Shown here in pieces: positions 8,000-45,402 of a DNA stretch of 64,000 nt. The DNA is taken from contig NZ_CP061170.1 of the NCBI RefSeq assembly GCF_011751745.2, forward strand, positions 558,001 to 622,000, written 5' to 3'. The stretch's first letter is position 1. Every line of letters begins with the position of its first letter. The position numbers were made by a program, and so were the translations under genes. The notes below the pieces were generated by a model, which made no database searches, was not told the origin of the DNA, and saw nothing but the letters and a program-made list of their open reading frames with translations. The stretch comes from Paramicrobacterium fandaimingii (GTDB taxonomy: Bacteria > Actinomycetota > Actinomycetes > Actinomycetales > Microbacteriaceae).

Positions 8000-8089
8000 G
8001 TTCAATCATTCGGATCTCCCGTGAGACACGCCGCGATTTGGGCGACGACACGCCGGTATCGGGGTCGGGCCTCCGAATGAGTAAACGGT
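8000..8089. repeat. ~90-bp palindromic intergenic repeat, copy A
   Basis: Lies between the convergent ends of the lipoprotein gene and pgm. It begins GTTCAATCATTCGGA and ends TCCGAATGAGTAAACGGT, so the two ends are an inverted repeat (ATTCGGA core). Inside are two direct copies of GACACGCCG. Copies B (40292-40380) and C (45313-45402) share ends, length and interior words. This is the most diverged copy. Confidence 0.75.
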
Positions 8090-8129
8090 CGAGCGCGCGA
8101 CTCAGCGTCACAGATCGACGAGAGGTGTA

Positions 8130-9752
8130 TCAGCCTTTGAGTGCCGCATCGACAATGGTCTTCGCCTCGGTGAGCACCTGCTCGAGATGATCTGTGCCGC
8201 GAAACGACTCGGCGTAGATCTTGTAGACGTCTTCTGTGCCGCTCGGGCGCGCAGCGAACCACGCGTTCTCGGTGACGACCTTCACACCGCCGATTGCCGC
8301 GTCGTTGCCTGGCGCGTGCGACAGCTTCGCGGTGATCTGCTCGCCCGCAAGTTCGGTGGCATGGATGCTGTCGCCGTCGAGCTTCTTCAGAATTGCCTTC
8401 TGCTCGTCGGTCGCGGCGGCGTCGACGCGGCGGTAGGCCGGATCGCCGAAGCGCTCCGTGAGCTGCGCGTACAGCTGCGACGGGGACTTTCCGGTGACGG
8501 CACGAATCTCGGCGGCGAGAAGGCAGAGCACGATGCCGTCTTTGTCCGTCGTCCAGACTGTGCCGTTTGTGCGCAGAAAGCTCGCGCCCGCGCTCTCTTC
8601 ACCGCCGAAGCCCACCGAGCCATCCACGAGCCCAGGCACAAACCACTTGAAGCCGACCGGAACTTCCCACAGCGTGCGATCGAGGGATGCTGCGACACGG
8701 TCGATCATCGAGCTTGAGACGAGGGTCTTGCCGATCGCGGCATCCGGATTCCACCCCGTACGGTGCTGGTAGAGATAGTCGACGGCCACGGCGAGGAAGT
8801 GATTGGGGTTCATCAGCCCCGCGTCTGGCGTGACGATGCCGTGCCTGTCGGCATCCGCGTCGTTGCCGGTGAGAATGTCGTAGTCGCCCCGATGGTTCAG
8901 AACCGACGCCATCGCGGAGGGGCTTGACGGATCCATGCGGATCTTGCCGTCCCAATCGAGGGTCATGAACCGCCACGTGGGGTCAACGAGCGGGTTCACG
9001 ACGGTGAGGTCGATGTCATAGCGGTCGGCGATCGCCTGCCAATAATGCACGCTTGCGCCGCCGAGCGGGTCGGCGCCGATGCGAATATCCGACTTTCTGA
9101 TCGCCTCCATGTCGATGATGTTCTCGAGGTCATCGACGTAGCGACCGCGAAAATCGTACGTGTCGACGGCGCTCGGTTCGGCGCGCTTCACCTCGGCGAG
9201 GCCGCCTTCGATCAGCGCGTTGGCGCGATCGGCGATCCGCGATGTTGCGTCGCTGTCGGCCGGCCCGCCGTGCGGTGGGTTGTACTTGAAGCCGCCGTCG
9301 CTCGGAGGGTTGTGGCTCGGCGTGATGATGATTCCGTCGGCGCGATTATGATGCGCCGGGTCGTTGTTGTACAGCAGAATCGCGTGGCTCAGCGCTGGCG
9401 TCGGCACGAAATCGTCGAATTCGTCGACGAGCACGTGCACTTTGTTGCCCACGAGCACTTCGAGCGCTGTGGTGCGCGCCGGAGCGCTCAGCGCGTGGGT
9501 GTCCGCGCCGAGAAAGAGCGGCCCCTCGACCCCGATCGATGCTCGATACTCCACGATCGCCTGCGTCGTCGCGGCAATGTGGTCGTCGTTGAACGCCGTG
9601 TTCAGCGAGGAGCCTCTGTGCCCGCTTGTTCCGAATGCCACGCGCTGAGAGGCGATCTCGGGATCGGGTTTGAGTTCGTAGTACGCGGCGATCAGTGAGT
9701 CGATGTCGACGAGGTCGTCGTCGGTGGCGAATGTTCCAGCACGCTCGGTCAT
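8130..9752 (-). CDS. pgm: Phosphoglucomutase (alpha-D-glucose phosphate-specific)
   Basis: 540-residue alpha-D-phosphohexomutase interconverting glucose 1-phosphate and glucose 6-phosphate, linking glycogen or sugar-nucleotide metabolism to glycolysis. The catalytic phosphoserine loop is ITPSHNPPSDGG (~residue 146), the metal-binding loop is GNDADADRHG (~residue 304) and the sugar-binding loop is GGEESAG. N-terminal FGTSGHRG is typical. Length matches the Pgm subgroup of actinobacteria. It is divergent from pheA with only 64 bp between them; GAGAAT lies 6 nt before the ATG, so its transcript may be leaderless. Confidence 0.95.
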   Translation of the reverse strand: MTERAGTFATDDDLVDIDSLIAAYYELKPDPEIASQRVAFGTSGHRGSSLNTAFNDDHIAATTQAIVEYRASIGVEGPLFLGADTHALSAPARTTALEVLVGNKVHVLVDEFDDFVPTPALSHAILLYNNDPAHHNRADGIIITPSHNPPSDGGFKYNPPHGGPADSDATSRIADRANALIEGGLAEVKRAEPSAVDTYDFRGRYVDDLENIIDMEAIRKSDIRIGADPLGGASVHYWQAIADRYDIDLTVVNPLVDPTWRFMTLDWDGKIRMDPSSPSAMASVLNHRGDYDILTGNDADADRHGIVTPDAGLMNPNHFLAVAVDYLYQHRTGWNPDAAIGKTLVSSSMIDRVAASLDRTLWEVPVGFKWFVPGLVDGSVGFGGEESAGASFLRTNGTVWTTDKDGIVLCLLAAEIRAVTGKSPSQLYAQLTERFGDPAYRRVDAAATDEQKAILKKLDGDSIHATELAGEQITAKLSHAPGNDAAIGGVKVVTENAWFAARPSGTEDVYKIYAESFRGTDHLEQVLTEAKTIVDAALKG

Positions 9753-9803
9753 GCGCCCATTCTCTCAGTGCCGGTTCCGCCAGTGCACATTGTCTCGGGC
9801 GAC

Positions 9804-9809
9804 TAGGCT
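9804..9809 (+). promoter_or_regulatory. -10 box TAGGCT of leaderless pheA
   Basis: TAGGCT ends 7 nt before the ATG at 9817 and no Shine-Dalgarno is present, so transcription should start at or next to the start codon. Confidence 0.6.
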
Positions 9810-9816
9810 CGATGCT

Positions 9817-10776
9817 ATGCCTCAGAACGACGCCTCCGTCCTCCGCACGTACAGCTATCTCGGGCCGCGCGGAACGTTTACCGAGGCAGCTCTTGCGCAG
9901 GTGGCAGAAGCCGAGGGTCAGATCTGGCGCAGCGTCAACAACGTCGGGGAGGCGTTCTCCGACGTCGCGAGCGGCGTCTCTGATGGGGCCGTCGTCGCTC
10001 TCGAGAACTCGATAGACGGCGGCGTTTCCGCCGCGCAGGATGCCCTGGCCACAACGGCGGGTCTGCGCATCATGGGGGAGTACCTCGTGCCCGTCGACTT
10101 CACGATCGTCGCGCGGCGCGGAATGACGCTCGAGCAGGTGTCCCACCTCAACGGGCACCCGGTTGCCTACGCGCAGTGCCGGCGCTGGATTGAGAAGCAT
10201 CTCCCCGGGCACACGCACATCCCGTCAACAAGCAACGTCGCCGCCGCGGCGAACCTGCTCGAGAGCGATGTCGCCGACGCCGCCATCGCTCCACCGAACA
10301 TCACGGAGCACTACGACCTCGAGGTGCTTGCCGAGCACATCGGCGACAACATCAACGCCGTCACGCGTTTCGCACTCGTGACGACGTCGCGCAGCATCCC
10401 CGAGCCGACAGGCGCAGACAAGACGAGCTTCGTCGCCGAGCTGCCCATCGACCAGCCGGGCGCCTTGCTCGACATGCTCGAGCAGCTCTCGACGCGCGGC
10501 GTCAATATGACCATGATCCAATCGCGGCCCATCGGAGACGAATTGGGCCGGTACCGGTTTGTGATCGACGTCGACGGGCATATTCGCGATGAGCGCGTCG
10601 CCGATGCGCTCATGGGCATTCACCGGTTCAGCCCCCGCGTCACCTTCCTCGGCTCCTACCCGAGGGCAGACAAGGCGCCCGTGCGGTTCGATGCCCGGTA
10701 TGACGACGACGTCTACATCGAGGCCCGCGACTGGCTGCGCGGCCTCATCTCGGGGGAGCCCACCCCCGAGGCGTAG
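9817..10776 (+). CDS. pheA: Prephenate dehydratase
   Basis: 319-residue enzyme converting prephenate to phenylpyruvate for phenylalanine synthesis. An N-terminal catalytic PDT domain begins YLGPRGTFTEAAL, with ALENSIDGGVSAAQD and later FALVTTSR; a C-terminal ACT regulatory domain (ELPIDQPGALLDMLEQLSTRGVN, ~residue 205 on) would bind phenylalanine for feedback inhibition. Monofunctional, with no chorismate mutase part. The open frame extends 38 codons further upstream into the pgm promoter side, but ATG 9817 lies 7 nt after TAGGCT and begins right before the conserved domain, so I use it. Confidence 0.93.
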   Translation: MPQNDASVLRTYSYLGPRGTFTEAALAQVAEAEGQIWRSVNNVGEAFSDVASGVSDGAVVALENSIDGGVSAAQDALATTAGLRIMGEYLVPVDFTIVARRGMTLEQVSHLNGHPVAYAQCRRWIEKHLPGHTHIPSTSNVAAAANLLESDVADAAIAPPNITEHYDLEVLAEHIGDNINAVTRFALVTTSRSIPEPTGADKTSFVAELPIDQPGALLDMLEQLSTRGVNMTMIQSRPIGDELGRYRFVIDVDGHIRDERVADALMGIHRFSPRVTFLGSYPRADKAPVRFDARYDDDVYIEARDWLRGLISGEPTPEA

Positions 10777-10815
10777 AAGAACACCGCACGCCGCGTTTCA
10801 CCGAAGGAGCTGAAC

Positions 10816-11340
10816 GTGCCCGACTCGACATCAGAATTCGACCCCCGTTTCGACCCGCGATTTCAGCCGGGCTTCGACCCTGAGGTGCACAGCGAACAGT
10901 CGCGTGGGCCGCGTGATTCACCGACAGAAGCGCCGACCGTGGCCGATTCCAACGACGAGGTACCCGTCGTGGATGCTGACGATCTTGCACACGGGGGAGC
11001 CCTCGATGGCGACGAGCACGAGGCAATGGATGCCGCGGCCGCACCACCGCGCAGCGGTGTCGTGTTGATGCTGCGCAACCCCTTCGTGTGGACCATCGTC
11101 GTTCTCGGAGTCGGCCTCGTCGCCTGGTCCCTGACCGCCTACTCATCGGCGATCGAGACGACGGCGAGCATTTTCTCTGGAGCGATCGGACGCAGCGACG
11201 AGACCATGACCGAATACGCGTCTGCGCAGTTCGCGATCGGCATCGCTCCGTTCACACTCGTTGTCGGCATCCTCGCCCTCGTCGGCGTCGTCTTCTTCGC
11301 CGCGGTGACGTGGTGGCGTGAGCGCGCGGCACAACGATGA
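10816..11340 (+). CDS. Acidic-tailed two-helix membrane protein, unknown function
   Basis: 174 residues, GTG start after AAGGAG. The first ~85 residues are acidic and disordered, opening with repeated FDPRF/FDPEV units; then two membrane helices (PFVWTIVVLGVGLVAWSLTAYS and FAIGIAPFTLVVGILALVGVVFFAA) with the charged end RERAAQR. It follows pheA by 39 bp and overlaps the next gene by 4 bp (ATGA), so the three may be cotranscribed. I do not recognise a family. Confidence 0.7.
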   Translation: MPDSTSEFDPRFDPRFQPGFDPEVHSEQSRGPRDSPTEAPTVADSNDEVPVVDADDLAHGGALDGDEHEAMDAAAAPPRSGVVLMLRNPFVWTIVVLGVGLVAWSLTAYSSAIETTASIFSGAIGRSDETMTEYASAQFAIGIAPFTLVVGILALVGVVFFAAVTWWRERAAQR

Positions 11341-11858
11341 CATCGCGCATCTCGTGGCGGGCTCTCATCACGACGGTCGTTGGCATCGTTCTGCTCATCG
11401 GCGGTTTGCTCACAGTCTGGGGTGGGCTGGCGCAGAGGTACGAGTCCGCGCATTCAGCGATCAGCGTCCACGAGCAGAAGCCACCGTCCGATCTCAATGA
11501 GTACACGTACTACTCGTTCGAAGGTGACGGCAGCGGTGCTCTCGACGACAACCTCTCGTCGATGCTCGAGAGCATCAGGGCGCTGCTGCTCTCTGACGCA
11601 GAAGCGTCAGGATCGTTCAATGTCCCCCACCTGGACGTCTACGTCGAGGAGGCGAGTCTCGTTGCTGTGTCAGGGGAACCGCCTCGGGATCGGCCGTATC
11701 GCTACGGCATCTACTTTCAGCCGTGGGCGCCCCACGGGTACATGATTGCGCCGTTCGTCGGAGGCCTGATCACGTTTGCCGGGCTCTTTTGGATGGCCGC
11801 ACGGTGGCACCTGACAGCATCCGTTCGACACCGTGAGATTGACGAAACCCCGCTGTAA
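11337..11858 (+). CDS. Two-helix membrane protein with extracytoplasmic domain, unknown function
   Basis: 173 residues. Helix 1 (ALITTVVGIVLLIGGLLTVWGGL) is near the N-terminus and helix 2 (MIAPFVGGLITFAGLFWMAA) near the C-terminus, leaving about 100 residues between, probably outside the cell. It is translationally coupled to the preceding membrane protein by an ATGA overlap, suggesting the two form a complex. No catalytic motif is seen. Confidence 0.7.
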   Translation: MTSRISWRALITTVVGIVLLIGGLLTVWGGLAQRYESAHSAISVHEQKPPSDLNEYTYYSFEGDGSGALDDNLSSMLESIRALLLSDAEASGSFNVPHLDVYVEEASLVAVSGEPPRDRPYRYGIYFQPWAPHGYMIAPFVGGLITFAGLFWMAARWHLTASVRHREIDETPL

Positions 11859-11985
11859 CAGCGAAACTGTGTCTGGCCCCACGAAAGGTCATACCCCCTG
11901 TCTCGGTGCTTAGCGTGCCGCAATCCCATATGCGCGTGCCCGCCAAGACGAGCTTCAGCCAAAGCAGCCTGATGCTTCGACGTAA

Positions 11986-13356
<1,371 letters not shown>

Positions 13357-13378
13357 CCGAGTCAGTACTCAGCACCAA

Positions 13379-13433
13379 CGTGTGCCACTTAGCGCGGCTT
13401 GCCCTGAGCTGAGGCCGCACAAAGTGGCACACG
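13379..13433. terminator. Long palindromic bidirectional terminator
   Basis: CGTGTGCCACTT (13379-13390) pairs perfectly with AAGTGGCACACG (13422-13433); including the inner GCGCGGC/GCCGCAC pairing, about 18 of 20 stem positions match. A TTTTTG run follows on the plus strand, as expected for a Rho-independent terminator of gdhA; it may also serve the converging gene. Confidence 0.8.
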
Positions 13434-13455
13434 TTTTTGTGCGGGCAGCGGTAGA

Positions 13456-14499
13456 TCAGGCCCTGTCTGCGGCGGCGGTTTCTGCCGCAGCGGCAGCGCG
13501 CTGCTTGGCGGCTGCGCGGGAGCGCGGGACCGGCACCTTCACGGTGAGCGCGAGTGGGTCAACCGTGAAGCGCGTTGCCGTCGTCGTTCCGATCTCGTCG
13601 CCATCGAGCTCGAGCTGCTGCGGGTCGTCTGGCTTCACCGTCACCATGGGCGAGCGCAGGTACGTCACCGTGCGGTCGCGACCCTCCGTCGCGGTGAGGA
13701 TGCGTCGCCCGATGCTGGAGCGGCGCAGCACGCCGTTCTCCCAGCGCACCTTGCGCCACACTTGCAGCCACCCGAGAGCGCCCTTGGGCTGAAGCACAGC
13801 CAAGTCGAGCTTTCCGTCGTCGATCTTGGCGTCGGGGAGCAACTCGATGCCGGCGGGAAGCGTGCCGCAGTTGGCGACGAGGATCGTGCTGACGTGGGCG
13901 CTGTGGGGCGCCGACTCGGCGAGCTGGTAGCGAATGCGAAACGGCTTGAGGTCGGCAAGCGAGCGCACGACAGCATCCGCGTAGGCAAGCCAGCCAACCG
14001 ACTTCTTCAAATCGTCGTTGGTGTTCGCGATCATCTGGGCGTCGATTCCCATGCCCGCCATCACGAGAAACACATACTGCTGCGCTGGCCCGTTCTCTGC
14101 GCGAACCTCGGCGATGCCGACATCGATAGCGCGATCGTTGCCCGCATAGGCGATGGACACCGCCTGCTTGACGTTGCCGAGCGGAAGATCGAGGTTGCGC
14201 GCAAGCAGGTTTCCCGTGCCTGCCGGAACAATGGCCAGCGGCACGCCGCTCGAGCGCAATCCTTCCGCGACGCAGCGCACGGTTCCGTCGCCGCCCGCAG
14301 CGACGACGACCGATGCGCCCTTCTTGACAGCCTGTTTGGCCATGGACACACCGGGGTCGTCGATAGTTGTCGCGATGAAGAGGGGTTCGCCCCACCCGTG
14401 CTCGACGGCGCCCTCGGTGATGATCCGCTTCAACTTCTCGGCATCCGTCTTGACCGGGTTGAACACGACTGCCGCGAATTTCTCGCCTTCGACGCTCAT
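13456..14499 (-). CDS. Diacylglycerol kinase catalytic-domain protein
   Basis: 347-residue lipid-kinase family protein (DagK/YegS/sphingosine-kinase fold). The nucleotide loop VVVAAGGDGTVRCVAEGL (~residue 65) is intact, followed by PAGTGNLLARNLDLPL; the C-terminal beta-sandwich includes GKLDLAVLQPKG and QLELDGDEIG. It would phosphorylate diacylglycerol or a related lipid at the membrane. The C-terminus is Ala/Arg-rich. Divergent from serS with only 36 bp between, and TAAGTT sits 6 nt before its ATG, implying a leaderless transcript. Confidence 0.88.
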   Translation of the reverse strand: MSVEGEKFAAVVFNPVKTDAEKLKRIITEGAVEHGWGEPLFIATTIDDPGVSMAKQAVKKGASVVVAAGGDGTVRCVAEGLRSSGVPLAIVPAGTGNLLARNLDLPLGNVKQAVSIAYAGNDRAIDVGIAEVRAENGPAQQYVFLVMAGMGIDAQMIANTNDDLKKSVGWLAYADAVVRSLADLKPFRIRYQLAESAPHSAHVSTILVANCGTLPAGIELLPDAKIDDGKLDLAVLQPKGALGWLQVWRKVRWENGVLRRSSIGRRILTATEGRDRTVTYLRSPMVTVKPDDPQQLELDGDEIGTTTATRFTVDPLALTVKVPVPRSRAAAKQRAAAAAETAAADRA

Positions 14500-14505
14500 A
14501 GAAGA

Positions 14506-14511
14506 AACTTA
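14506..14511 (-). promoter_or_regulatory. -10 box TAAGTT of the leaderless lipid-kinase gene
   Basis: Read on the minus strand, TAAGTT ends 6 nt before the ATG at 14499, with no ribosome-binding site. It sits within 13 bp of the oppositely oriented serS -10 box. Confidence 0.6.
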
Positions 14512-14523
14512 CCCGGTTCCGCA

Positions 14524-14529
14524 TAGACT
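14524..14529 (+). promoter_or_regulatory. -10 box TAGACT of leaderless serS
   Basis: TAGACT ends 6 nt before the GTG start of serS at 14536; no Shine-Dalgarno is present. Confidence 0.65.
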
Positions 14530-14535
14530 TGGCCT

Positions 14536-15801
14536 GTGATTGATCCCGTAATTCTGCGCGAAAACCCCGATCTCATCCGACGCTCGCAAGTAGCACGCGG
14601 CTCCCGAGTCGAACTTGTCGACGAGGCGATCGAGGCGGATGCCGCGCGGCGACGCGCAATCGGAGTCTTCGAAGAGCTGCGTGCAGAGCAGAATGCCTTC
14701 AGCAAGAAGGTCGCGAGGGCGCCGAAAGATGAGAAGAAGGTGCTCATCGCGGAGGTGCAGCAGCTCGCCGCGCGTGTGAAAGACGCACAGCGCGCGTCGA
14801 GCGAGGCTGAAGACGCCTTCACGACGGTGGTCCGCGCGATCGAGAACGTCATCATCGAGGGCATTCCCTCGGGCGGCGAAGACAACTTCAGGCTTCTGCG
14901 CACTGAGGGAGAACGGCCCACGTTCGACTTTGCGCCGCGCGATCACCTTGAGCTCGGCGAGACGCTTGACGCGATTGACATGGCGCGCGGCACGAAGGTG
15001 TCGGGTGCGCGCTTCTACTACCTGAAGGGCATCGGCGCGCGCCTGGAGCTCGCTCTCATGACGCTGGGTCTCGACCGTGCGCTCGAGGCGGGCTTCATCC
15101 CGCTCATCACGCCGACGCTGGTGAAGCCGGAGATCATGGCCGGAACGGGATTTCTCGGAGAGCACTCCGATGAGGTGTACAAACTCGAGGCAGACGATCT
15201 GTACCTCACGGGAACGAGCGAGGTCGCGCTCGCCGGGTACCACGCCAACGAGATCGTCGACCTGTCGAACGGCCCTCTTCGCTACGCCGGCTGGTCGACG
15301 TGCTACCGCCGCGAGGCCGGTTCGCACGGAAAAGACACGCGCGGCATCATTCGCGTTCACCAGTTCAACAAGCTCGAGATGTTCGTCTACACCGATCCCG
15401 CAGATGCCGAGGCCGAGCACGAGAGGCTGCTCGCCTGGCAAGAGGGAATGCTGCAGAGCCTCGGGCTCAGCTACCGGGTGATCGACACGGCCGCAGGCGA
15501 CCTTGGTTCGAGTGCAGCCCGCAAGTTTGACGTGGAGGCGTGGGTTCCCACGCAAGACGCCTACCGCGAGCTCACCTCGACGTCGAACTGCACAACGTTT
15601 CAGGCGCGCCGACTCGACACGCGCCACCGCACTGATTCGGGCAAGACGGCTCCGGTTGCGACTCTCAACGGAACGCTCGCGACGACGCGCTGGCTCGTCG
15701 CACTGCTCGAGACGCATCAGCGTGCCGACGGCTCTGTCGTGATCCCCGAGGTGCTGCGCCCGTACCTTGGCGGGCTCGAGGTTGCGGAGCCCGTGGCGTG
15801 A
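14536..15801 (+). CDS. serS: Seryl-tRNA synthetase
   Basis: 421-residue class II synthetase charging tRNA-Ser. The N-terminal coiled-coil arm (residues ~30-100, rich in Arg/Glu/Lys) is followed by the catalytic core: motif 2 region FRYxG-like [27 protein letters not shown], and the C-terminal motif 3 part [15 protein letters not shown]. Starts with GTG at the end of a 6-nt spacer after TAGACT. It overlaps the next gene by 4 bp (GTGA). Two tRNA-Ser genes lie 0.9 and 2.4 kb downstream. Confidence 0.97.
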
Positions 15802-16589: not shown

Positions 16590-16622
16590 CCGCACCGAAT
16601 CGTTCACACTCCCTCGGTCAGG

Positions 16623-16628
16623 TAGAAT
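16623..16628 (+). promoter_or_regulatory. -10 box TAGAAT upstream of tRNA-Ser(UGA)
   Basis: TAGAAT lies 25 bp before the tRNA. A clear -35 at proper spacing is not visible. Confidence 0.45.
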
Positions 16629-16653
16629 CGTTCGCGCCGTCTTTCGACGGTGA

Positions 16654-16741
16654 GGAGGGCTGTCCGAGCGGCCGATGGAGCTGGTCTTGAAAACCAGTGG
16701 GCAGAAATGTCTCGTGGGTTCGAATCCCACGCCCTCCGCCA
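16654..16741 (+). tRNA. tRNA-Ser (anticodon UGA)
   Basis: Class II tRNA with a perfect acceptor stem (GGAGGGC/GCCCTCC), anticodon loop CTTGAAA (anticodon TGA) and a long variable arm, T-loop GGTTCGAATCC, discriminator G and encoded CCA. A TTTTT run follows directly. Confidence 0.95.
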
Positions 16742-16917
16742 GTTTTTCGCACGAAAAGAATGCTGCTTCAGCAAAGCTTCGGCGACTCCTGAGCATCCTT
16801 CAATCGGATTTTCAGCAGCGTGTGCGTAAAATCTATGCACTAAGGGCCGTTTGCTCCCCGAATCACGGGTCGAAGAGCGGTATCTTGCACATCTGTCCCC
16901 TGTGAGAGGAAACTTCA

Positions 16918-18156: not shown

Positions 18157-18158
18157 TT

Positions 18159-25914: not shown

Positions 25915-26292
25915 TCACAGCAGCGACGTCAGCGCCCAGCCGAGCGCAGCCGCGGCGACAGCGAGCACGAGCATCCCGACTCCGCCTGCCAGACCGGCGA
26001 ACCAGCGGCCCTGCTGAACAAGCCTGACGGTCTCGACGCTCGCCGTGCTGAACGTCGTATAGCCGCCGAGAAAGCCCGTGCCGACGATGAGCGCGACGCT
26101 CTCGGGAATGAGAAACGCGGCCGCCGCGCCGGTCAGTGCCCCGAGAACCAGGGAACCGCTGACGTTGATGATTGCGGTACCGAAGGGGAACGGCTTCTGC
26201 AGGCGGGCGCTGATGACGCCGTCGAGCCAGAATCGAACGGCGGCTCCGACGCCACCGGCGAGAGCAAGCGCGAGGAACACGAGGGGCGTCAC
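25915..26292 (-). CDS. crcB: CrcB/Fluc fluoride channel subunit 1
   Basis: 125 residues, four membrane helices. Conserved features: GGxxGAxxR as GGVGAAVRFWLD near the start, NVSGSLVLG in helix 2, and GFLGGYTTFSTASVE in helix 3, which lines the fluoride pore. The GTG start has a GGAGGTG site and overlaps the upstream crcB stop by 4 bp. Two different subunits encoded in tandem are usual in actinobacteria and form a heterodimeric fluoride exporter. Confidence 0.93.
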   Translation of the reverse strand: MTPLVFLALALAGGVGAAVRFWLDGVISARLQKPFPFGTAIINVSGSLVLGALTGAAAAFLIPESVALIVGTGFLGGYTTFSTASVETVRLVQQGRWFAGLAGGVGMLVLAVAAAALGWALTSLL

Positions 26293-26729
26293 AATGCACC
26301 TCCGCCTCGAGTGCGGCGCCGGTGCAGACCTGCGCCGAGCATAATGCCGAGCACCGTTGCGACGGCACCGACGAGAAGAGTGAGAAGCACATAGCCGATC
26401 GCGAGCGTCGTCGTGCCGTCGCCGATCAGCCCCACCGTGTCGACGGCAAACGTGCTGTAGGTGGTGAAGCCGCCGAAGAAGCCCGTGCCGATGCCGAGAC
26501 GAAGCGCGCGTCGGCGCCCCGTGTCATCGCCGAAGCGGCTGAGCGCCTCAAGCAGCATGCCGAGCCCGAGTGCGCCGAGCAGGTTCACGGTGAGCGTGGC
26601 CAAGGGAAAGGAATCGCTGTTCATGCCGAGCGCGATCGCGGCGCGCAGCGCGCTGCCGACGGCGCCACCGATCGCGACGAGTGCGAGAAACCGCCACTGA
26701 GTGTGTGGGGGACGCTCTGGTGTGTTCAC
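26289..26729 (-). CDS. crcB: CrcB/Fluc fluoride channel subunit 2
   Basis: 146 residues, four helices with GGAVGSALRAAI, NLLGALGLG and GFFGGFTTYSTFAVDTV. First gene of the pair, translationally coupled to the next subunit. GTG start without an obvious ribosome-binding site, 15 bp after the end of the GntR gene on the same strand, so it may be cotranscribed with it. I see no room for, or sign of, a fluoride riboswitch directly upstream. Confidence 0.93.
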   Translation of the reverse strand: MNTPERPPHTQWRFLALVAIGGAVGSALRAAIALGMNSDSFPLATLTVNLLGALGLGMLLEALSRFGDDTGRRRALRLGIGTGFFGGFTTYSTFAVDTVGLIGDGTTTLAIGYVLLTLLVGAVATVLGIMLGAGLHRRRTRGGGAL

Positions 26730-37389: not shown

Positions 37390-37653
37390 ATTCGCCTCCA
37401 TGAGATTCTCAGGCGATTCTCTCGGAGATTTTCGCACGCGGATGGAAGCAGTCACCGCAGATGCTCGTTTTGCGCAGTCACGGTGAGCGAGCGCTGCTCT
37501 TTCCGTGCTGGCCGGGTGGTCGACCCTGAGCGTCTCGTGCACATGAAATACGTCTCCGATGTTGGTCCGCTTTCACGAGGGGAGCACGGCTAGGGTGTAC
37601 CGGATGCTGCTGCCGCAGCGGCTCACGAACGATCGTCATTCTGAGCGCAACCA

Positions 37654-38223
37654 ATGAGGAGCTTCGCTATTCGACATCACGCTTTCGCCACAGCTCTTGC
37701 CGCACTCGCGCTCGTCGGACTCGTCGGCTGCGCGCCGGCCGACGCCGAAGGCGGCCCGACGAAGACGCCGTCCGTTCCGCAGAGCCTCGCGCCATCGGCA
37801 ACCGACGTCGCGGTCGGCGAGCAGAACGCCGAAGAGCTCTGTGCAGCCGAGAGCTCCTCTGGGTCAGATGACGTGTGCGTGCTCGAAGACACCCAGATCG
37901 ATGGCACCATCGTCTTCGCCACACAGCGGGTCGTGAAGCTCATCGGCGCGACGGTGACCGGCTCAGCATCCATCACGGGCGCTGACAACGTAGTCGTCAC
38001 AGACAGCGCCGTGGACGGCGACCTCGAGATGGCCGGAAACGTGGATGCTGTCGTCGCGCACAACTCCGTGGGGGCAACCCTCACCGTCGACGGCGGCAAA
38101 CACGGAACCATTGATGACAACACGGTTGACGGCGACCTCAACTGCACGGGCAATGGAAAAGTGGAGGGCTCAGGCAACAGGGTGTCGGGCACGGCAGCCA
38201 GTCAGTGCGCGCCTCTCGGGTGA
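37654..38223 (+). CDS. Lipoprotein with predicted beta-helix repeats, unknown function
   Basis: 189 residues. Lipobox GLVGC (Cys26), a Thr/Pro linker, then short beta repeats rich in Gly/Asn/Val (QIDGTIVFATQRVVKLIGATV; NVVVTDSAVDGDLEM; AVVAHNSVGATLTV; TIDDNTVDGDLNC), as in right-handed beta-helix proteins. A conserved Cys pair may form a disulfide. Its 3' end overlaps the converging SDR gene by 22 bp. The 264 bp upstream, shared with the divergent lipoprotein, hold no feature that I recognise beyond a TAGGGT too far from the ATG. Confidence 0.65.
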   Translation: MRSFAIRHHAFATALAALALVGLVGCAPADAEGGPTKTPSVPQSLAPSATDVAVGEQNAEELCAAESSSGSDDVCVLEDTQIDGTIVFATQRVVKLIGATVTGSASITGADNVVVTDSAVDGDLEMAGNVDAVVAHNSVGATLTVDGGKHGTIDDNTVDGDLNCTGNGKVEGSGNRVSGTAASQCAPLG

Positions 38224-39197
38224 GCCTCGGCGACCAACGCGTCGAAGACCGCGTCGAGAGCGGCATCCGTCACCTGCTTCGCTTGGTGTGCGTCAAACCA
38301 CGCGATCTGCTCGCGAGCGCCCTGCCAGTAGGGCACAGTCGTGCCGAACTCCGGCACGAGAGCGCGCAGCTTGCTCGTGTCGAAGACCATCGAGTGCGAC
38401 TTGTCGCCGAGCAGGCCGGGGCCGAGTTGCGGAACCGCCGAGGCGATGCGATCGCTCGTGACGTGAATGATGTTGCAGGGTGCCCCTGCGGCATCCGCGA
38501 GCCACTCGTAGATCTGATTCCACGTCGGTGCGTGATCGCCGGTGATCGTGAACGCCTCTCCGAGCGCGAGCGGATTGCCGAGCAGGCCGGTGAACCCGAC
38601 GGCGAAGTCAGAGTTGTGCGTCACCGTCCAGAGGCTCGTTCCGTCGCCGTGCACGACGACCGGTTTGCCCGCGCGCATGCGGGCGATGTCGGTCCAGCCG
38701 CCGAGCGTCGGCAGCCCCGTGTGATCGTAGGTGTGCGAGGGTCGCACGATGGTCATGGGAAAACCGCTGTCGCGATACGCCGCAACAAGCAGGTCTTCGC
38801 CCGCGATCTTGTCGCGGGAATACTGCCAGAACGGGTTGCGCAGCGGCGTTGACTCGGTGACGGGCAGGAGCGACGGCGGCGTCTGGTACGCAGACGCAGA
38901 GCTGATGAAGACGTATTGCCCCGTGCGCCCGCTGAAGAACTCGATGTCGCGCTGCACCTGCTCGGGCGAGAAGGCGACGAACTGCGCAACGGCATCGAAC
39001 TCGCGAGTGCCGATGGCGTCCTGAACGGATGTCGGTGAGCTCGCGTCCGCCGTCAGCTGCTCGACGCCGTCTGGCAGCGGCCGTTCAGTGGTTCGTCCGC
39101 GATTGAGCACCGTCACCTCGTGGCCTCTCTGCAGTGACGCGCGAACGCACGCCGAGCTGATCATGCCAGAACCGCCGATGTAGAGCACTCGTGTCAT
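38202..39197 (-). CDS. NAD-dependent epimerase/dehydratase family protein (atypical SDR)
   Basis: 331 residues. Rossmann motif VLYIGGSGMISSACVRASLQRGHEVTVLNRG (GGxGxIS instead of GxxGxxG), SSASAYQTPPSLLP and a YSRDKIAGE motif in place of YxxxK. This pattern fits the atypical SDR group related to UDP-glucose epimerases and RNA-binding CSP41-like proteins. I start at ATG 39197; another ATG lies 12 bp upstream. Product unknown. Divergent from the LacI gene. Confidence 0.78.
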   Translation of the reverse strand: MTRVLYIGGSGMISSACVRASLQRGHEVTVLNRGRTTERPLPDGVEQLTADASSPTSVQDAIGTREFDAVAQFVAFSPEQVQRDIEFFSGRTGQYVFISSASAYQTPPSLLPVTESTPLRNPFWQYSRDKIAGEDLLVAAYRDSGFPMTIVRPSHTYDHTGLPTLGGWTDIARMRAGKPVVVHGDGTSLWTVTHNSDFAVGFTGLLGNPLALGEAFTITGDHAPTWNQIYEWLADAAGAPCNIIHVTSDRIASAVPQLGPGLLGDKSHSMVFDTSKLRALVPEFGTTVPYWQGAREQIAWFDAHQAKQVTDAALDAVFDALVAEAHPRGAH

Positions 39198-39264
39198 GGG
39201 TCTCATCATGCCGGATGCCGAGGCACGGCGCCATGGCTGGTGCGTCGTCTCCCGCGGTGCCGAT

Positions 39265-39270
39265 TAGGCT
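39265..39270 (+). promoter_or_regulatory. -10 box TAGGCT of a leaderless LacI-family gene
   Basis: TAGGCT ends 6 nt before ATG 39277; no Shine-Dalgarno. Confidence 0.6.
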
Positions 39271-39276
39271 GTGTGC

Positions 39277-40284
39277 ATGCGAGCGACAATGCGCGACGTG
39301 GCGTCGCGGGCGGGGGTGTCGCCCAAAACGGTATCGAACGTCATCAACGGCGTCGTCTTTGTGCGCCCAGCCACTCGCGAACGCGTCGAGCAGGCGATGG
39401 CAGAGCTCGACTACGTTCCGAATTTCAGCGCTCGAAGCCTGCGCAACGGGCGCTCGGGGGTGCTGGCCCTTGCGCTGCCGAACCTCAATACGCAGTACTC
39501 GGCTGAGACGATCAGCGCATTCGTCGAGGTGGCGCATGCTCGAGGCTGGGCGATTCAGATCGAAGAGACCGGAGCGGAGCCGCAGCGCGAGTTCGAGCTG
39601 CTCTCGCGTGCCCGAGCGCACCTCGTCGATGGGCTCATCCTCAACCCGATCACGCTTGAGGACAGCGTGATCGCCGAGGTGCGCGGCCTTCCGCCGCTCG
39701 TGCTGATCGGCGAGGTCGAGCAGAGTCTCGTCGACCTGGTCGGCGTCGACAGCCGTGATTCGGCACGCGATATGACGCGGCACCTCATCGACAGGGGAAA
39801 CCAACGCATCGCCGTCGTCGGCTCTCCCGTCGGCCATTTTCAGACGGCGACAGCGAGACAGCGCGCCGAGGGCTACCGCGACGCACTGCGCGAGGCTGGT
39901 CTGCCGACGGATGCTGCGCTCGAGATCGGCTGCCCAGACTGGACGTCTGCGGCGGCAGCATCCGCCTTCTCTGCGTATCTCGACGGCGGCGGCGAGGTAC
40001 CCGACGCGGTGTTCTGCTTTACAGACACCATGGCTCTCGGCGTGCTCAACGAGCTGTGGGCCCGCGGGCATCGGGTGCCTGGCGACGTGCGGGTTGCGGG
40101 CTTCGACAACACGATCGACAGTCCGTATATGACGCCGCCGCTGACCACCGTGGCCTTCGACCGCCGTGAGCTCGCTCGTTTCGCGATCGAACGCCTTGAA
40201 CAGCGCATCGCCGACGTGACGCTCGAGCCGGCGCGCATTCGGGTGCCGTACGAGATCGTCACGCGCGAGAGCACCCGCCCCTAG
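39277..40284 (+). CDS. LacI-family repressor, probable regulator of the arabino-oligosaccharide operon
   Basis: 335 residues. HTH MRDVASRAGVSPKTVSNVINGV (~5-26), hinge DYVPNFSARSLRNGRSG, then the effector domain ending in TTVAFDRRELARFAIERLEQRI. ATG 39277 is favoured by the -10 spacing over the TTG/ATG two codons upstream. It lies directly upstream of the binding-protein gene; the operon promoter carries a perfect palindrome ATTACATCGATGTAAT, its likely site. The effector is inferred to be arabinose or an arabinoside from the GH51 gene at the end of the operon. Confidence 0.85.
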   Translation: MRATMRDVASRAGVSPKTVSNVINGVVFVRPATRERVEQAMAELDYVPNFSARSLRNGRSGVLALALPNLNTQYSAETISAFVEVAHARGWAIQIEETGAEPQREFELLSRARAHLVDGLILNPITLEDSVIAEVRGLPPLVLIGEVEQSLVDLVGVDSRDSARDMTRHLIDRGNQRIAVVGSPVGHFQTATARQRAEGYRDALREAGLPTDAALEIGCPDWTSAAAASAFSAYLDGGGEVPDAVFCFTDTMALGVLNELWARGHRVPGDVRVAGFDNTIDSPYMTPPLTTVAFDRRELARFAIERLEQRIADVTLEPARIRVPYEIVTRESTRP

Positions 40285-40291
40285 CGCCGCT

Positions 40292-40380
40292 GTTCAGCGA
40301 TTCGGAACTTTCGGGCGACACGCCGTGCCGCAGCCCGCGACACGCCGCACAGCTTCGTTTTTTCCGAATGCGTGAACGGT
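40292..40380. repeat. ~90-bp palindromic intergenic repeat, copy B
   Basis: Starts 7 bp after the LacI stop. Ends are GTTCAGCGATTCGGAA and TTCCGAATGCGTGAAC, an inverted repeat matching 13-14 of 16 positions; the flank ends GGT. The interior has two direct copies of GCGACACGCCG at 22-bp spacing and a TTTTTT run before the right end, so it could also act as a terminator. Best-preserved copy. Confidence 0.82.
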
Positions 40381-40424
40381 GATCGTCCGATCCCGTGATC
40401 GCACCTTCTCGTGCGAGACACCTC

Positions 40425-40453
40425 TTGCGTCGACTATTACATCGATGTAATGA
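40425..40453 (+). promoter_or_regulatory. Promoter of the arabinoside operon (TTGCGT, 17 bp, TAATGA)
   Basis: TTGCGT (40425-40430) and TAATGA (40448-40453) with 17-bp spacing. The operator palindrome covers the spacer and the first part of the -10, so repressor and polymerase would compete. Confidence 0.5.
40436..40451. promoter_or_regulatory. LacI-type operator ATTACATCGATGTAAT
   Basis: Perfect 16-bp palindrome with the central CG usual for LacI-family sites, 45 bp before the binding-protein start codon. Confidence 0.82.
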
Positions 40454-40495
40454 TGGGGCATCCACGATGGTGTCCACCACAAGGGAGTGATGTTC

Positions 40496-41839
40496 ATGAC
40501 ACGATCTCGACAGGCGGGTGACGGCCCGGGTCTTTCGAGGCGCCGCATGCTGACAGGCGCGGCAGTGCTGCTCGGGGGCGCCTTTGCCGCCCCTGCCCTC
40601 AGCGGCTGTACGCAGGCAGCAGCATCCGGAGTCACCAACCTCAGCTACTGGCATCTGCTCAGCGGCGGCGACGGCATCACCATGGCAAAGCTCGTCGCCG
40701 ACGTCGAGAAGGCGCTCGGTGATGTCACCGTCGACCAGACGGTGCTCGCCTGGGGTGCGCCGTACTACACAAAGCTCGCTATGGCGGCAGCAGGAGGCCG
40801 CGCACCCGACATCGCGATTATGCACGCCAGCCGTGTCACGGGCTGGGCGCCCGGTGGCCTGCTTGACCCCTGGGATCTCGATCTCCTCGCCGAATTCGGT
40901 GTCAGCGAAGACACCTTCAAGCCGCGCATCTGGGAGAAGGGCTTCACAGACGACAAGCTGTACTCGGTTGCCCTCGATTCGCATCCGTTCATCACCTTCT
41001 TCAATACAGACGTTGCCGACGAAGCGGGCGTGCTGAATTCCGATGGCACCCTCATTGAGACGTCGACGCCAGACGCGTTCATCGAGATGGCGCTCGAGAT
41101 GCAGGCGGTCACGGGGCAGCACGGGCTTTCGTGGGGGTATCTCAACGACGGAGCTCAGCTCTGGCGGCTCTTCTACACGCTGTACAAGCAGCACGGCGCA
41201 GACATGGTGCTCGAGACGGGCAAGCCAGCGGAGTTCGACGAGGATGCCGCGATCGAATCGCTCGAGTTCATGACGAAGCTTGTCGACGGCACCGTTGCAG
41301 CGACCAATAGCGACATCAACAACGGCATCGCCGAGTTCGCCGGCGGCAAGAGCGGAATGCTCTTCTCGGGGGTATGGGAACTCCGCACCCTGCAGGATGC
41401 GGGAATCGCGTTCGACGCGACGACGATTCCGACGCTGTACGGCACCCCGGCCGTGTATGCGGACTCCCACACGTTCGTGCTGCCGCATCAGTCGAACCCA
41501 GACGAGACGAAGCGCCGCGCTGCATATGAGTTCATGTCGACGCTGCTGAAAGACTCGATCGAATGGGCGGGTGCCGGACATATTCCTGCATACCTGCCCG
41601 TCATCGACGATCCAGCGTATGGTGACCTCGTCCCTCAGGCCCACTATGCTGACGCCGCAGATCTGATCAACTACGATCCGCCCGCATGGTTCACGGGTTC
41701 AGGCTCTAACTTCCAAAACTACTTCCTCGACGCGATCCAAGGCGTCATGCTCGGCGGCACGACTCCCGAAGCGGGTTTTGCGTCATTCATCGGGCGGATA
41801 AACACACTGCTCTCGAAGCCGAATCCGGTGACGGTATGA
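40496..41839 (+). CDS. Sugar-binding lipoprotein, Tat-type signal, arabinoside importer
   Basis: 447 residues, family 1 solute-binding protein. The N-terminus has a twin-arginine motif (LSRRRMLTGAAVLLGG) and a lipobox (LSGC, Cys38), so it is probably exported folded through Tat and lipidated. Start: three in-frame candidates (40487 GTG, 40490 and 40496 ATG) lie near AAGGGAG; 40496 has the best spacing. It serves the two permeases that follow. Sugar specificity (arabino-oligosaccharides) is inferred from the GH51 gene in the operon. Confidence 0.85.
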   Translation: MTRSRQAGDGPGLSRRRMLTGAAVLLGGAFAAPALSGCTQAAASGVTNLSYWHLLSGGDGITMAKLVADVEKALGDVTVDQTVLAWGAPYYTKLAMAAAGGRAPDIAIMHASRVTGWAPGGLLDPWDLDLLAEFGVSEDTFKPRIWEKGFTDDKLYSVALDSHPFITFFNTDVADEAGVLNSDGTLIETSTPDAFIEMALEMQAVTGQHGLSWGYLNDGAQLWRLFYTLYKQHGADMVLETGKPAEFDEDAAIESLEFMTKLVDGTVAATNSDINNGIAEFAGGKSGMLFSGVWELRTLQDAGIAFDATTIPTLYGTPAVYADSHTFVLPHQSNPDETKRRAAYEFMSTLLKDSIEWAGAGHIPAYLPVIDDPAYGDLVPQAHYADAADLINYDPPAWFTGSGSNFQNYFLDAIQGVMLGGTTPEAGFASFIGRINTLLSKPNPVTV

Positions 41840-41891
41840 GCGCCCCGACCTGGCAGCGCACGACGCTGCGCGACGACAAAGGAGTCTCGCT

Positions 41892-42824
41892 GTGACCACG
41901 GCAACCGCTCGAAACGTGCTTTCTGACACCGGCGCCACAGTGAAGGCGTTGCGGTCGAATAAACCACGGGAAAACCTCACGGGGTGGGCATTCATCGCCC
42001 CACTCGGCATCCTGTTCATTCTGTTCATGCTCGTGCCGATCCTCTGGGGCATTTACCTGAGTTTCACGAACCAGAGCCTCACCGGGGCGGGCGGCGATCT
42101 GATCGGTTTTGATAACTACGCCGAGGCGCTCGCCGACCCTGACATGTGGAGGTCGATGCTCAACACCGTGTGGTTCACGGTGCTCAGTACCATCCCTCTC
42201 GTCGTGGTGGCGCTTGCGCTCGCGCTCCTCGTCAACACCGGGCTGCCTGGGCAGTGGCTGTGGCGGCTCTCGTTCTTCATGCCCTACCTGCTCGCCTCCA
42301 CCGTGGTTTCGCTCATCTGGGTGTGGCTGTACAACCCGCAGCTCGGGCTCTTCAACGCCATTCTCGGCTGGTTCGGCATCGATCCGGTCACGTGGCTGCA
42401 GGATCCTGATCTTGCGATGCTCTCGGTCGTCGTCACGACAGTGTGGTGGACAATCGGGTTCAACTTTCTTCTCTATCTCGCTGCACTGCAGAACATTCCA
42501 GAGACTCAGTACGAGGCAGCATCGATCGACGGGGCTGGCCGCTGGCGCACCCTGGCCTCAATCACGATTCCGCAACTGGGCCCGACAACGATCATGGTTG
42601 TGGTGCTGCAGCTGCTGGCGTCTCTCAAGGTATTCGACCAGATCTACCAGATGACCGGGGGCGGCCCGGCGGGCACCACGCGATCGGCCATTCAATACAT
42701 CTTCGAGACGGGGTTCACCGGCTTCCGCTTCGGGTACTCGTCGGCGATCTCGTACATCTTCTTCGTACTCATCATCATCGTCTCGGTGATCCAGTTCCGC
42801 ATCACGGCGCGAAGGAGCGCATGA
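41892..42824 (+). CDS. Sugar ABC transporter permease (MalF type)
   Basis: 310 residues, six helices beginning WAFIAPLGILFILFMLVPILWGIYLSF; EAA loop YEAASIDGAGRW. GTG start with AAAGGAG at 41878-41884. Second gene of the arabinoside operon, 52 bp after the binding protein. Confidence 0.88.
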   Translation: MTTATARNVLSDTGATVKALRSNKPRENLTGWAFIAPLGILFILFMLVPILWGIYLSFTNQSLTGAGGDLIGFDNYAEALADPDMWRSMLNTVWFTVLSTIPLVVVALALALLVNTGLPGQWLWRLSFFMPYLLASTVVSLIWVWLYNPQLGLFNAILGWFGIDPVTWLQDPDLAMLSVVVTTVWWTIGFNFLLYLAALQNIPETQYEAASIDGAGRWRTLASITIPQLGPTTIMVVVLQLLASLKVFDQIYQMTGGGPAGTTRSAIQYIFETGFTGFRFGYSSAISYIFFVLIIIVSVIQFRITARRSA

Positions 42825-42825
42825 C

Positions 42826-43722
42826 ATGTCGACACTTACCGAACAACACACAGTTCCCGCGGGCGGCCGCTCGGCAGCATCCATCGCCCCCGCCCGAAAG
42901 AAGAAGCTCGGTCCGGCCGGAATCGCAGCACTTGTCGTGCTCATCGTGCTTGCGGTGGCGTGGCTGCTCCCATTCTTCTGGGCAATCGTCACGTCGCTCA
43001 AAAGCGAGACGGATGCCGCCTCGGCAGCGCTCTGGCCGGCACAGGGCTTCACGTTCGACGCATACGCCAAGGTGCTCGCCGAGGGCAACGTGCCGATCTG
43101 GGCGTGGAACAGCCTGTTCACGGCGGCGTTGATCACGCTCATTACGGTGCTCACCTCGGCACTTGCCGCCTACGCGTTCTCACGCATGCGCTTTCGCGGG
43201 CAGAAGTGGGCGTACATCGTGGTGATCGCGGCGATCGCCGTTCCGCCTCAGGTGCTCATCGTTCCTCTCTTCTACGAGATGCTCGCGATGGACCTCGTTG
43301 ACACGTACTGGGGCCTCATTCTGCCGCAGGTGGTGCAGCCGATCATCGTGCTGATTCTCAAGCAGTTCTTCGACCAGATTCCGATTGAGCTTGAAGACGC
43401 GGCGCGTGTCGACGGCGCAAGCAGACTGCGCGTCTTCACGTCGATCGTGATGCCGTTGTCCCGGCCAATTCTCGCGGCGGTGTCGATCTTCGTGTTCGTG
43501 TGGGCGTGGAACAACTTTCTGTGGCCCTTCATCATCATCAACGACCCGCAGCTGATGACGCTGCCCGTCGGCCTGCAGACGGTGAAGAGCGCCTACGGCA
43601 TCCAGTACGCGCAGAACATGGCGATGGCGATTCTCGCCGCACTGCCCCTCATCATCGTCTTTCTCTTCTTCCAACGCCAGATCATCAAGGGCATCTCCAC
43701 CACCGGCTTCGGTGGACAGTAA
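42826..43722 (+). CDS. Sugar ABC transporter permease (MalG type)
   Basis: 298 residues; first helix IAALVVLIVLAVAWLLPFFWAIVTS, EAA loop LEDAARVDGASRLR. Starts one base after the previous stop. No ATPase is encoded nearby, so the importer probably borrows a shared MsiK-like ATPase, as for the ceb system. Confidence 0.88.
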   Translation: MSTLTEQHTVPAGGRSAASIAPARKKKLGPAGIAALVVLIVLAVAWLLPFFWAIVTSLKSETDAASAALWPAQGFTFDAYAKVLAEGNVPIWAWNSLFTAALITLITVLTSALAAYAFSRMRFRGQKWAYIVVIAAIAVPPQVLIVPLFYEMLAMDLVDTYWGLILPQVVQPIIVLILKQFFDQIPIELEDAARVDGASRLRVFTSIVMPLSRPILAAVSIFVFVWAWNNFLWPFIIINDPQLMTLPVGLQTVKSAYGIQYAQNMAMAILAALPLIIVFLFFQRQIIKGISTTGFGGQ

Positions 43723-43773
43723 TTCACCGTGCAGCAGCCCTCGAGACCGACCGCACCACACACAAGGAGACAC

Positions 43774-45306
43774 ATGACCACCGCTCGCATCACCATCGAC
43801 CGCGACTTCAGAGTCGGCGATGTGCCTCGGCGCATCTTCGGCTCGTTCGTCGAGCACATGGGACGCTGCGTCTATTCCGGCATCTACGAGCCGGGGCATC
43901 CTCAGGCCGATGAGCGCGGGTTCCGCCGCGACGTTCTCGATCTCGTCAAGGAGATGGGGCCGACAGTCGTGCGTTACCCGGGAGGCAACTTCGTCTCGGG
44001 GTACAACTGGGAAGACGGGGTCGGCCCTGTCGACAAGCGCCCAACGCGCATCGATGGTGCCTGGCACACGATCGAGACGAATGCGTTCGGCCTGCACGAG
44101 TTCGTCGACTGGGCGCGCGAGGCCGACGTCGAGGTGATGGAGGCCATCAACCTCGGAACCCGGGGAGTGGATGCCGCTCGCGCACTCGTGGAGTACGCAA
44201 ACCACCCCGGGGGCACAGCGTGGAGCGACATGCGACGCACGAACGGAGCGGAGGACCCCTTCGACATCACACTCTGGTGCCTGGGCAATGAACTTGACGG
44301 TCCGTGGCAGATCGGCCACAAGACCGCGGACGAGTACGGACGACTCGCGCAAGAGGCCGGTAAGGCAATGAAGCTCGTCGACCCGTCGATCGAGCTCGTT
44401 GCGGTTGGCAGCTCGAACACCGGAATGCCCACGTTCGGCGCCTGGGAGCACGCGGTGCTGAATCACGCGTACGACGAGGTGGACTACATCTCGCTACACG
44501 CCTACTACCAAGAGCACGATGGCGACGCGAAGAGCTTTCTCGCCACGGCCGTCGACATGGACTACTTCATCGAGTCGGTCATCTCGACGGCGGATGCCGT
44601 GGGGGCACAGCGCAAGACGACAAAGCGCATCAACCTCTCGTTCGACGAGTGGAACGTCTGGTACCAGCGCGGGCTCGACACCGACGACCAGCCGCACAAC
44701 GTCGAGAAGAGCTGGCAGACGCACCCGCGTCTGATCGAAGACGAGTACAACGTCACGGATGCTGTCGTCGTCGGCACGTTCCTCAACTCGCTGCTGCGGC
44801 ACGGCGACCGCGTGACCATCGCCAACCAGGCTCAGCTCGTCAACGTGATCGCGCCGATCCGCAGCGAAGAGGGCGGCCCGGCATGGCGTCAGAGCATCTT
44901 CTGGCCATTCGCCCGCATGTCGCAGCTTGCTCACGGAAGCATTCTGCGCACGGCCGTCTCGAGCGACAAGGTAGACACAGACAAGTACGGTGATGCCGAT
45001 GTCGTCGACGTGAGCGCAACGTGGGATGAAGAGCACGGCACAGTTGCGTTCTTCCTCGCCAATCGTGGGCTCGACGAGGCGGCAGATGTGTCAGTGAAGC
45101 TCGGCGGGTTCACGGCATCCGGGGTTTCCCGCGCTGAGGTGCTCACGGTGCCCGAGGGTGGCGACCGCTTCACGTCGAATACGCAGAACGCGCAGCCCGT
45201 CGGCCTCACGCCGCTCGAGGGCGTCACTGTCGACGGTTCCGCGCTCACGCTGAAGCTGCCGGCGCTCTCGTGGGCGGTCGTCGTCGTCGAGGTGACGAGA
45301 GCGTAG
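43774..45306 (+). CDS. abfA: GH51 alpha-L-arabinofuranosidase
   Basis: 510 residues, cytoplasmic (no signal peptide). The (alpha/beta)8 domain starts RRIFGSFVEHMGRCVYSGIYEPGH, with YPGGNFVSGYNWEDGVGP; the acid/base Glu is in CLGNELDGPWQIGH and the nucleophile in NLSFDEWNVWYQ. The C-terminal beta domain follows from ~390. It releases arabinose from imported arabino-oligosaccharides. ATG 43774 has AAGGAG at ideal spacing. Last gene of the operon; a palindromic repeat follows its stop. Confidence 0.94.
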   Translation: MTTARITIDRDFRVGDVPRRIFGSFVEHMGRCVYSGIYEPGHPQADERGFRRDVLDLVKEMGPTVVRYPGGNFVSGYNWEDGVGPVDKRPTRIDGAWHTIETNAFGLHEFVDWAREADVEVMEAINLGTRGVDAARALVEYANHPGGTAWSDMRRTNGAEDPFDITLWCLGNELDGPWQIGHKTADEYGRLAQEAGKAMKLVDPSIELVAVGSSNTGMPTFGAWEHAVLNHAYDEVDYISLHAYYQEHDGDAKSFLATAVDMDYFIESVISTADAVGAQRKTTKRINLSFDEWNVWYQRGLDTDDQPHNVEKSWQTHPRLIEDEYNVTDAVVVGTFLNSLLRHGDRVTIANQAQLVNVIAPIRSEEGGPAWRQSIFWPFARMSQLAHGSILRTAVSSDKVDTDKYGDADVVDVSATWDEEHGTVAFFLANRGLDEAADVSVKLGGFTASGVSRAEVLTVPEGGDRFTSNTQNAQPVGLTPLEGVTVDGSALTLKLPALSWAVVVVEVTRA

Positions 45307-45312
45307 GAGTCA

Positions 45313-45402
45313 GTTCAACCATTCGGAACTTCGCCGCCCGTCGCGGCGTGTCGGTGCGCGGCGCGCCGCGAGGCGGGTGGCTTTTCCGAATGGTTGCACG
45401 GT
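45313..45402. repeat. ~90-bp palindromic intergenic repeat, copy C
   Basis: Between the converging arabinofuranosidase and epimerase genes, 7 bp after the former's stop. Ends GTTCAACCATTCGGAA and TTCCGAATGGTTGCAC match 15 of 16 as an inverted repeat; the copy ends ACGGT like A and B. The interior carries CGGCGTGTCG, the reverse complement of the CGACACGCCG word in A and B, and extra GC palindromes. Confidence 0.82.

Follow-up and report, generated by a model that had tools for sequence, protein, structure and literature searches.

What are the three short palindromic sequences that stand at gene ends in this stretch of DNA, and what put them there? The window, by which we mean the whole 64-kb stretch analysed (G000:C1:558001-622000), comes from the 3,622,163 bp, single-contig genome of Paramicrobacterium fandaimingii (G000, the source genome). 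An earlier reading of its letters, the original prediction, had picked out three copies of a repeat with inverted ends and had offered three options: a miniature inverted-repeat transposable element (MITE), a repetitive extragenic palindromic (REP)-like element, or a structured RNA. We consider it probable that the repeats are a REP-like family belonging to a DNA-binding nuclease, which probably binds them and may have spread them. Among the three options that of a REP-like or trans-mobilized element is the best supported, with structured RNA weaker as a main function and a classical MITE unsupported.

The repeat is far from confined to three sites. We gathered 52 copies from the genus and built a covariance model (R1) on 49 of them, a covariance search of genome and relatives having been called for by the original prediction. 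Hits of R1 number 19 in G000, 23 in G003 (of which one is weak, at E 1.9e-4) and 10 in G001, and G002 has two weak ones. Of the 52 genus copies, 47 were picked by their ends alone and five, with one end mismatch, were accepted only given the inner motif described below. The exact-end pattern ATTCGGAN{45,75}TCCGAAT has 18 matches in G000, all of 70-71 bp, and the same pattern reversed has none. Across the family, R1 matches at least 74 of 398 Microbacteriaceae genomes and 26 of 85 genera, both minimum counts from a search with strict filters and at most 11 candidates scored per genome. Among public named genomes, a pattern of interior plus ends hit 42 stretches, 28 of them in Microbacteriaceae (Microbacterium sp. 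MPKO10, Agromyces salentinus, A. terreus, Humibacter sp., Glaciibacter superstes); the remaining 14 appear to be chance matches. There was no match among 50,697 phage records, and 72,556 plasmid records gave just three weak matches, all in Tsukamurella. The Rfam scan matched only four tRNAs and no family for the repeats, consistent, as is the open-licence literature, with the earlier statement that no named family has these ends. Single ends serving as termini of a larger transposon were rejected: the sole unpaired TTCANNNATTCGGA site in G000 falls in coding-like sequence.

A nuclease gene bracketed by the repeats

Two copies in G000 (1052849-1052934 and 1053966-1054051) flank a nuclease gene of about 308 codons at G000:C1:1052944-1053870. 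The original prediction had seen no transposase, and the bracketed enzyme is indeed of no known transposase type; a cognate gene does exist, however, outside the window and 431 kb away. Its protein fuses an AbiEi-antitoxin-like N-terminal part (a winged helix and a second domain) to a Vsr-like PD-(D/E)XK nuclease, with Pfam matches to AbiEi_4, MTES_1575 and DUF559. The AbiEi fold 6y8q is the top Foldseek match for residues 1-198, and PADLOC reports AbiEi at E 1.7e-4. The nuclease part conserves the catalytic residues of the Vsr-like fold and may nick DNA, and its closest solved relatives include the homing endonuclease 3r3p. The nearest named relatives of the protein are in P. chengjingii (95%) and P. 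agarici, and 282 of 398 Microbacteriaceae genomes have matches. No bracketed gene family other than that of this AbiEi/Vsr-like protein was found, no genome-wide transposase search having been made.

The bracketing recurs well beyond the source genome. Our family-level sample comprised 40 loci, L169-L178 located via the DUF559 domain and L179-L208 being the 30 returned for the nuclease. R1 matches both sides of the gene at 11 of these (L176, L179, L180, L181, L183, L184, L188, L196, L198, L200 and L201), although some of the two-sided matches are weak, with E up to 0.1, and the second repeat of L181 lies 840 bp from the gene. A model-free test, which asks for inverted repeats with matching stems on the two sides, was positive at eight loci (L172, L183, L186, L190, L197, L205, L206 and L208), bringing the two-sided brackets to 18 of 40. 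At a score of 8 this stem test was positive at 12 of 42 loci (four of these located through repeats), compared with one shuffled partner in 200 and no window pair in 200. In an order-level sample, at a score of 10, it was positive at 12 of 30 loci against 0 of 150 controls, and eight of the 12 came from other families. The stem test was substituted for one based on exact shared k-mers, which at short k discriminated too poorly (with 7-mers, 16 of 42 loci vs 47 of 600 shuffled partners). The stems are gene-specific: they vary between genes and mostly match across the two sides of one gene.

In the best-studied cases, dispersed solo copies share the stem of the bracketed nuclease in their own genome. 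The G032 genome contains 31 exact copies of its bracketed nuclease's stem, against a control of 0. By eye, about 17 of the 31 make up one similar 88-bp subfamily, and several stand in small arrays (L210, L215) of two or three similar 88-bp repeats, with 260-390 bp spacing and repeated flanks. G341 has three stem copies, one of them solo, and in G258, G105 and G393 the solo copies agree by eye with the bracket stem. We hold the cognate bracketing and the sharing of stems with high confidence. As a separate observation, G377 (L132, L133, L134) carries a relative of this repeat whose ends are likewise ATTCGGA and whose core is 70 bp, with a GATTCGG-like sequence inside in place of GACACGCCG; one pair of these related repeats brackets a nuclease gene.

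A repeat-gene-repeat unit could also be a homing cassette, in which a solo repeat serves as the empty site: the nuclease cuts it, and a copy of the gene enters. Such an insertion would yield this arrangement; in three of 24 brackets the two repeats are clearly direct and similar (of the remainder, one pair is inverted and 20 are ambiguous), and the kinship with 3r3p fits. G000, however, has 17 solo copies and one bracketed gene, the repeat interiors differ in most brackets, and the location of the unit does not change between G000, G003 and G004. We regard homing as improbable. At that shared location the G004 protein is only 57% identical. The unit is neighboured by biotin ligase, PH-domain and GtrA-like genes, and the four open reading frames (ORFs) scanned beside it in G000 include no DUF1814 nucleotidyltransferase toxin.

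Architecture, folding and conservation of the repeat

In this genus the element is 86-88 bp long, with GTKCA-N3-ATTCGGA and its inverse as end modules around a core of 68-72 bp. The three copies of the window lie where they had been placed, and the starts and ends described for them are present; the extra 3' bases (..GGT) formerly included are common to these three only and are not part of the family repeat. The features are as follows.

8000..8086, repeat copy 1; core of 71 bp at 8008-8078; flanked by amidase and phosphoglucomutase genes that converge; ortholog in G003
8000..8014, + strand, left end module of copy 1, GTTCA-N3-ATTCGGA, exact pattern match
8072..8086, - strand, right end module of copy 1, one mismatch to the pattern
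8025..8033, + strand, inner 9-mer GACACGCCG of copy 1, left half, core position 18
8047..8055, + strand, inner 9-mer GACACGCCG of copy 1, right half, core position 40
40292..40377, repeat copy 2; core 40300-40369, 70 bp; 7 bp 3' of the stop codon of a LacI-family gene; no copy at the orthologous G003 site
40317..40325, + strand, inner 9-mer GACACGCCG of copy 2, left half
40339..40347, + strand, inner 9-mer GACACGCCG of copy 2, right half
45313..45399, repeat copy 3; core of 71 bp at 45321-45391; flanked by genes for an arabinofuranosidase C-terminal domain and an aldose epimerase that converge; orthologs in G003 and G004
45344..45352, - strand, inner 9-mer of copy 3, left half, reading CGGCGTGTC on the + strand, core position 24
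45360..45368, + strand, degenerate inner 9-mer GGCGCGCCG of copy 3, right half, detectable only if mismatches are allowed

The inverted-repeat ends described earlier hold up: all three left ends have GTTCANNNATTCGGA exactly, and their inverted partners on the right have zero or one mismatch. The gene setting was also read correctly, with copies 1 and 3 between converging genes and copy 2 after the LacI gene, and with distances to stop codons, from ORF coordinates, of 43-77 bp for copy 1 and 6-11 bp for copy 3. Elsewhere in the window, 26021-26091 and 26428-26498 are 71-nt stretches that are 73% alike; they lie in adjacent reading frames at a distance of 407 bp and are perhaps a duplicated gene pair.

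The doubt that the copies might not align outside their ends is answered by a strict inner grid common to them. Counting from the nearer core end, GACACGCCG stands at position 18 (17-19) or reversed at position 24 (23-25) in 101 of the 104 halves of the 52 genus copies; of the other three halves, one has no match to GACACGCCG at up to two mismatches and two have the motif elsewhere. The two positions mirror each other about position 25, and thus each half carries a palindrome of 15 bp, GACACGC-S-GCGTGTC, frequently with just one of its arms preserved. Among the 36 copies with two strict motifs, the arms are arranged '<>' in 16, '><' in nine, '>>' in seven and '<<' in four. The base adjoining ATTCGGA tends to match across the two sides (G/G in 19 and A/A in 17 of the 52 copies). 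Across genera the inner 9-mer is retained, and the outer stem varies yet stays an inverted repeat.

Folding bears on the structured-RNA option, under which the repeats would be bidirectional terminators or other RNA structures at gene ends. The mean fold z is -4.9 in G000 and z is -2 or lower in 41 of 50 genus copies, pairing is maintained in the outer stems, where two pairs covary, and many copies lie 7-15 bp 3' of a stop codon (rough gene calls). Against this, the stem sequence is fixed within a genome, the inner 9-mer is conserved in the non-pairing arrangements ('>>' and '<<') too, no Rfam family matches, and the bracketing of one gene family is left unexplained. We rejected the RNA hairpin as the unifying feature, given the non-pairing arm combinations that exist despite strong folding, and consider a primarily RNA function very improbable.

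A stronger competitor holds that the repeats do no more than bind the AbiEi-like protein, acting as a regulator or chromosome organizer, and that they spread by ordinary site evolution and were kept by selection; the nuclease part would serve repair or defence, and the upstream copy would be the operator of the nuclease gene. The fixed modular spacing and mirrored grid suit this, as does conservation: over 22 ortholog pairs, identity is 0.987 for ATTCGGA, 0.809 for GTKCA, 0.86-0.91 for inner positions 24-26 and 0.588 for linker positions 9-17, although the figure for the ends is partly built in because copies were located by their ends (less so for the inner site). Concerted evolution of the copies was rejected, since linkers diverge while modules persist. 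Orthologs may swap arms (L125:14875 is '<>' and L093 is '>>'), as expected if either arm serves. The excerpt of PMC7319586 used here describes autoregulation through inverted repeats in AbiEi-family proteins. Finally, the chromosomal third lying opposite dnaA holds none of the 52 R1 copies of G000, G003 and G001. The chance of this gap is 4.5e-4, 9e-5 and 0.017, respectively, if copies are independent, which they are not, orthologs being recounted; the gap further assumes a terminus opposite dnaA, and faster turnover there could also produce it. Other observations fit pure binding sites poorly: solo copies lie mostly at gene ends rather than at promoters (16 of 50 convergent and seven divergent, by rough gene calls), a downstream copy with the same stem is unexpected for an operator, and G032 shows a burst of similar copies. 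We judge this explanation unlikely, if less so than homing or RNA function.

A proposed mechanism of dispersal

For the REP-like reading, in which the nuclease binds and perhaps spreads the repeats, we propose the following mechanism. By analogy with AbiEi antitoxins, the AbiEi-like part would recognize the end modules together with the inner sites, which form an inverted array, and bind them; the nuclease part would then nick or cut the bound repeat, perhaps as a hairpin or cruciform; and repair or copying of the break or nick might disperse the repeat, mostly to gene ends. That the AbiEi-like protein binds the repeats seems to us quite likely, whereas on whether the nuclease dispersed them we are evenly divided.

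Species-specific absences affect window copy 2 in G003, L126:7623 in G004, L126:12388 in G001 and L125:7653 in G003, where other sequence occupies the site. Alignments of empty sites, a check that had been suggested together with target-site duplications, showed no such duplication, the flanks being too diverged. An ordinary MITE is not supported, the bracketed enzyme being of no known transposase type and no target-site duplication being seen, including in the flanks of the G032 copies.

Several points weigh against the proposed nuclease-repeat partnership. By the tests used, 22 of 40 family and 18 of 30 order loci have no two-sided bracket, and the stem test is itself blunt, missing the model-confirmed bracket of the source genome (L179; L236 in the order sample). 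Two more DUF559 genes in G000 (G000:C1:2383150 and 2696077) have no adjacent family copy, and the source-genome protein falls below every curated Pfam cut-off (MTES_1575, 23 bits vs 38.2). The solo-copy stem of G250, G083 and G065 is absent at the single nuclease locus compared in each, with 4-6 such genes per genome. The interiors of bracketing repeat pairs are usually as unlike as shuffled sequence, so most brackets are not recent duplications. For 15 of the 19 G000 copies one or more sister species have a same-place counterpart (of the four without one, two have no flank match in the stretches compared), which implies little recent movement in this genus, and none of the four species-specific absences shows a target-site duplication, their flanks being diverged or rearranged. 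Architecture, bracketing, stem sharing and conservation are the computed results; binding, cutting and movement are inferred. Dispersal in this genus would now be slow, and the copies appear mostly old and retained as sites.

Comparison with known systems

The closest parallel is the REPtron, the pairing of REPs with REP-associated tyrosine transposases (RAYTs). In the excerpts of the papers used here, RAYT genes are bracketed by their own REPs and co-evolve with them (PMC2817692), and the REP sequence differs between species along with its enzyme (PMC2817692, PMC3733652). Our element likewise consists of extragenic palindromes dispersed within a genome, with the enzyme gene between two copies and the repeat varying with the enzyme, and dispersed extragenic copies with the stem of the bracket are found. 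The enzyme is AbiEi-like plus Vsr-like, in contrast to the HUH Y1 tyrosine transposase (Transposase_17, PF01797) of RAYTs; the repeat is 86-88 bp with inner sites and no GTAG/CGTC tag, whereas REPs are 20-40 bp and tagged; and there are 19 copies here against the 37 to 427 perfect copies given for Stenotrophomonas in the Nunvar table. The element works like a REPtron and is not a member of that group, enzyme and repeat type being different.

The N-terminal part shares the AbiEi fold (6y8q) with the AbiE type IV toxin-antitoxin systems (AbiEi, Rv2827c), whose target is also an inverted-repeat array; the excerpt of PMC7319586 describes AbiEi as a DNA-bending protein whose binding sites are 23-bp inverted repeats in pairs. 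Here, unlike in AbiE, the protein is fused to a nuclease, no DUF1814 toxin occurs among the four neighbours scanned, and the sites are dispersed. With Vsr and Vsr-like homing endonucleases (Vsr, I-Bth0305I, VsrA) it shares the nuclease fold and the pattern of acidic and His residues (for VsrA, an excerpt of PMC12907096), but it has an AbiEi-like DNA-binding part and is tied to palindromic repeats rather than to a methylase or intron. MITEs are similarly short, non-coding and dispersed with inverted ends; unlike in MITEs, the modules are conserved across species, no target-site duplication came to light, and no parent transposase of known type was found, though the genome was not searched as a whole for transposases. 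For Noc/SlmA-type chromosomal sites, which are absent around the terminus, a likeness would be tentative: the terminus third of three genomes holds 0 of 52 copies, and these copies are not independent.

We found no report in the open-licence literature that pairs DUF559/AbiEi-Vsr nucleases with repeats. Actinobacteria commonly encode DUF559/MTES_1575 proteins, to which no function has been assigned, and gene-specific palindromes give them a concrete candidate target; many unannotated intergenic hairpins would find an explanation, and the link offers a second enzyme type behind REP-like repeats. If the mobility is real, the class of mobile element is new. Tentatively, and as somewhat doubtful in its full form, we put forward a new class of repeat-plus-enzyme element, widespread in Micrococcales, in which an antitoxin-derived domain and a Vsr-like nuclease would recognize, cut and spread gene-specific palindromes, with several incompatible nuclease/stem pairs per genome; beside the known systems it would stand as a third, HUH-independent route to REP-like repeats.

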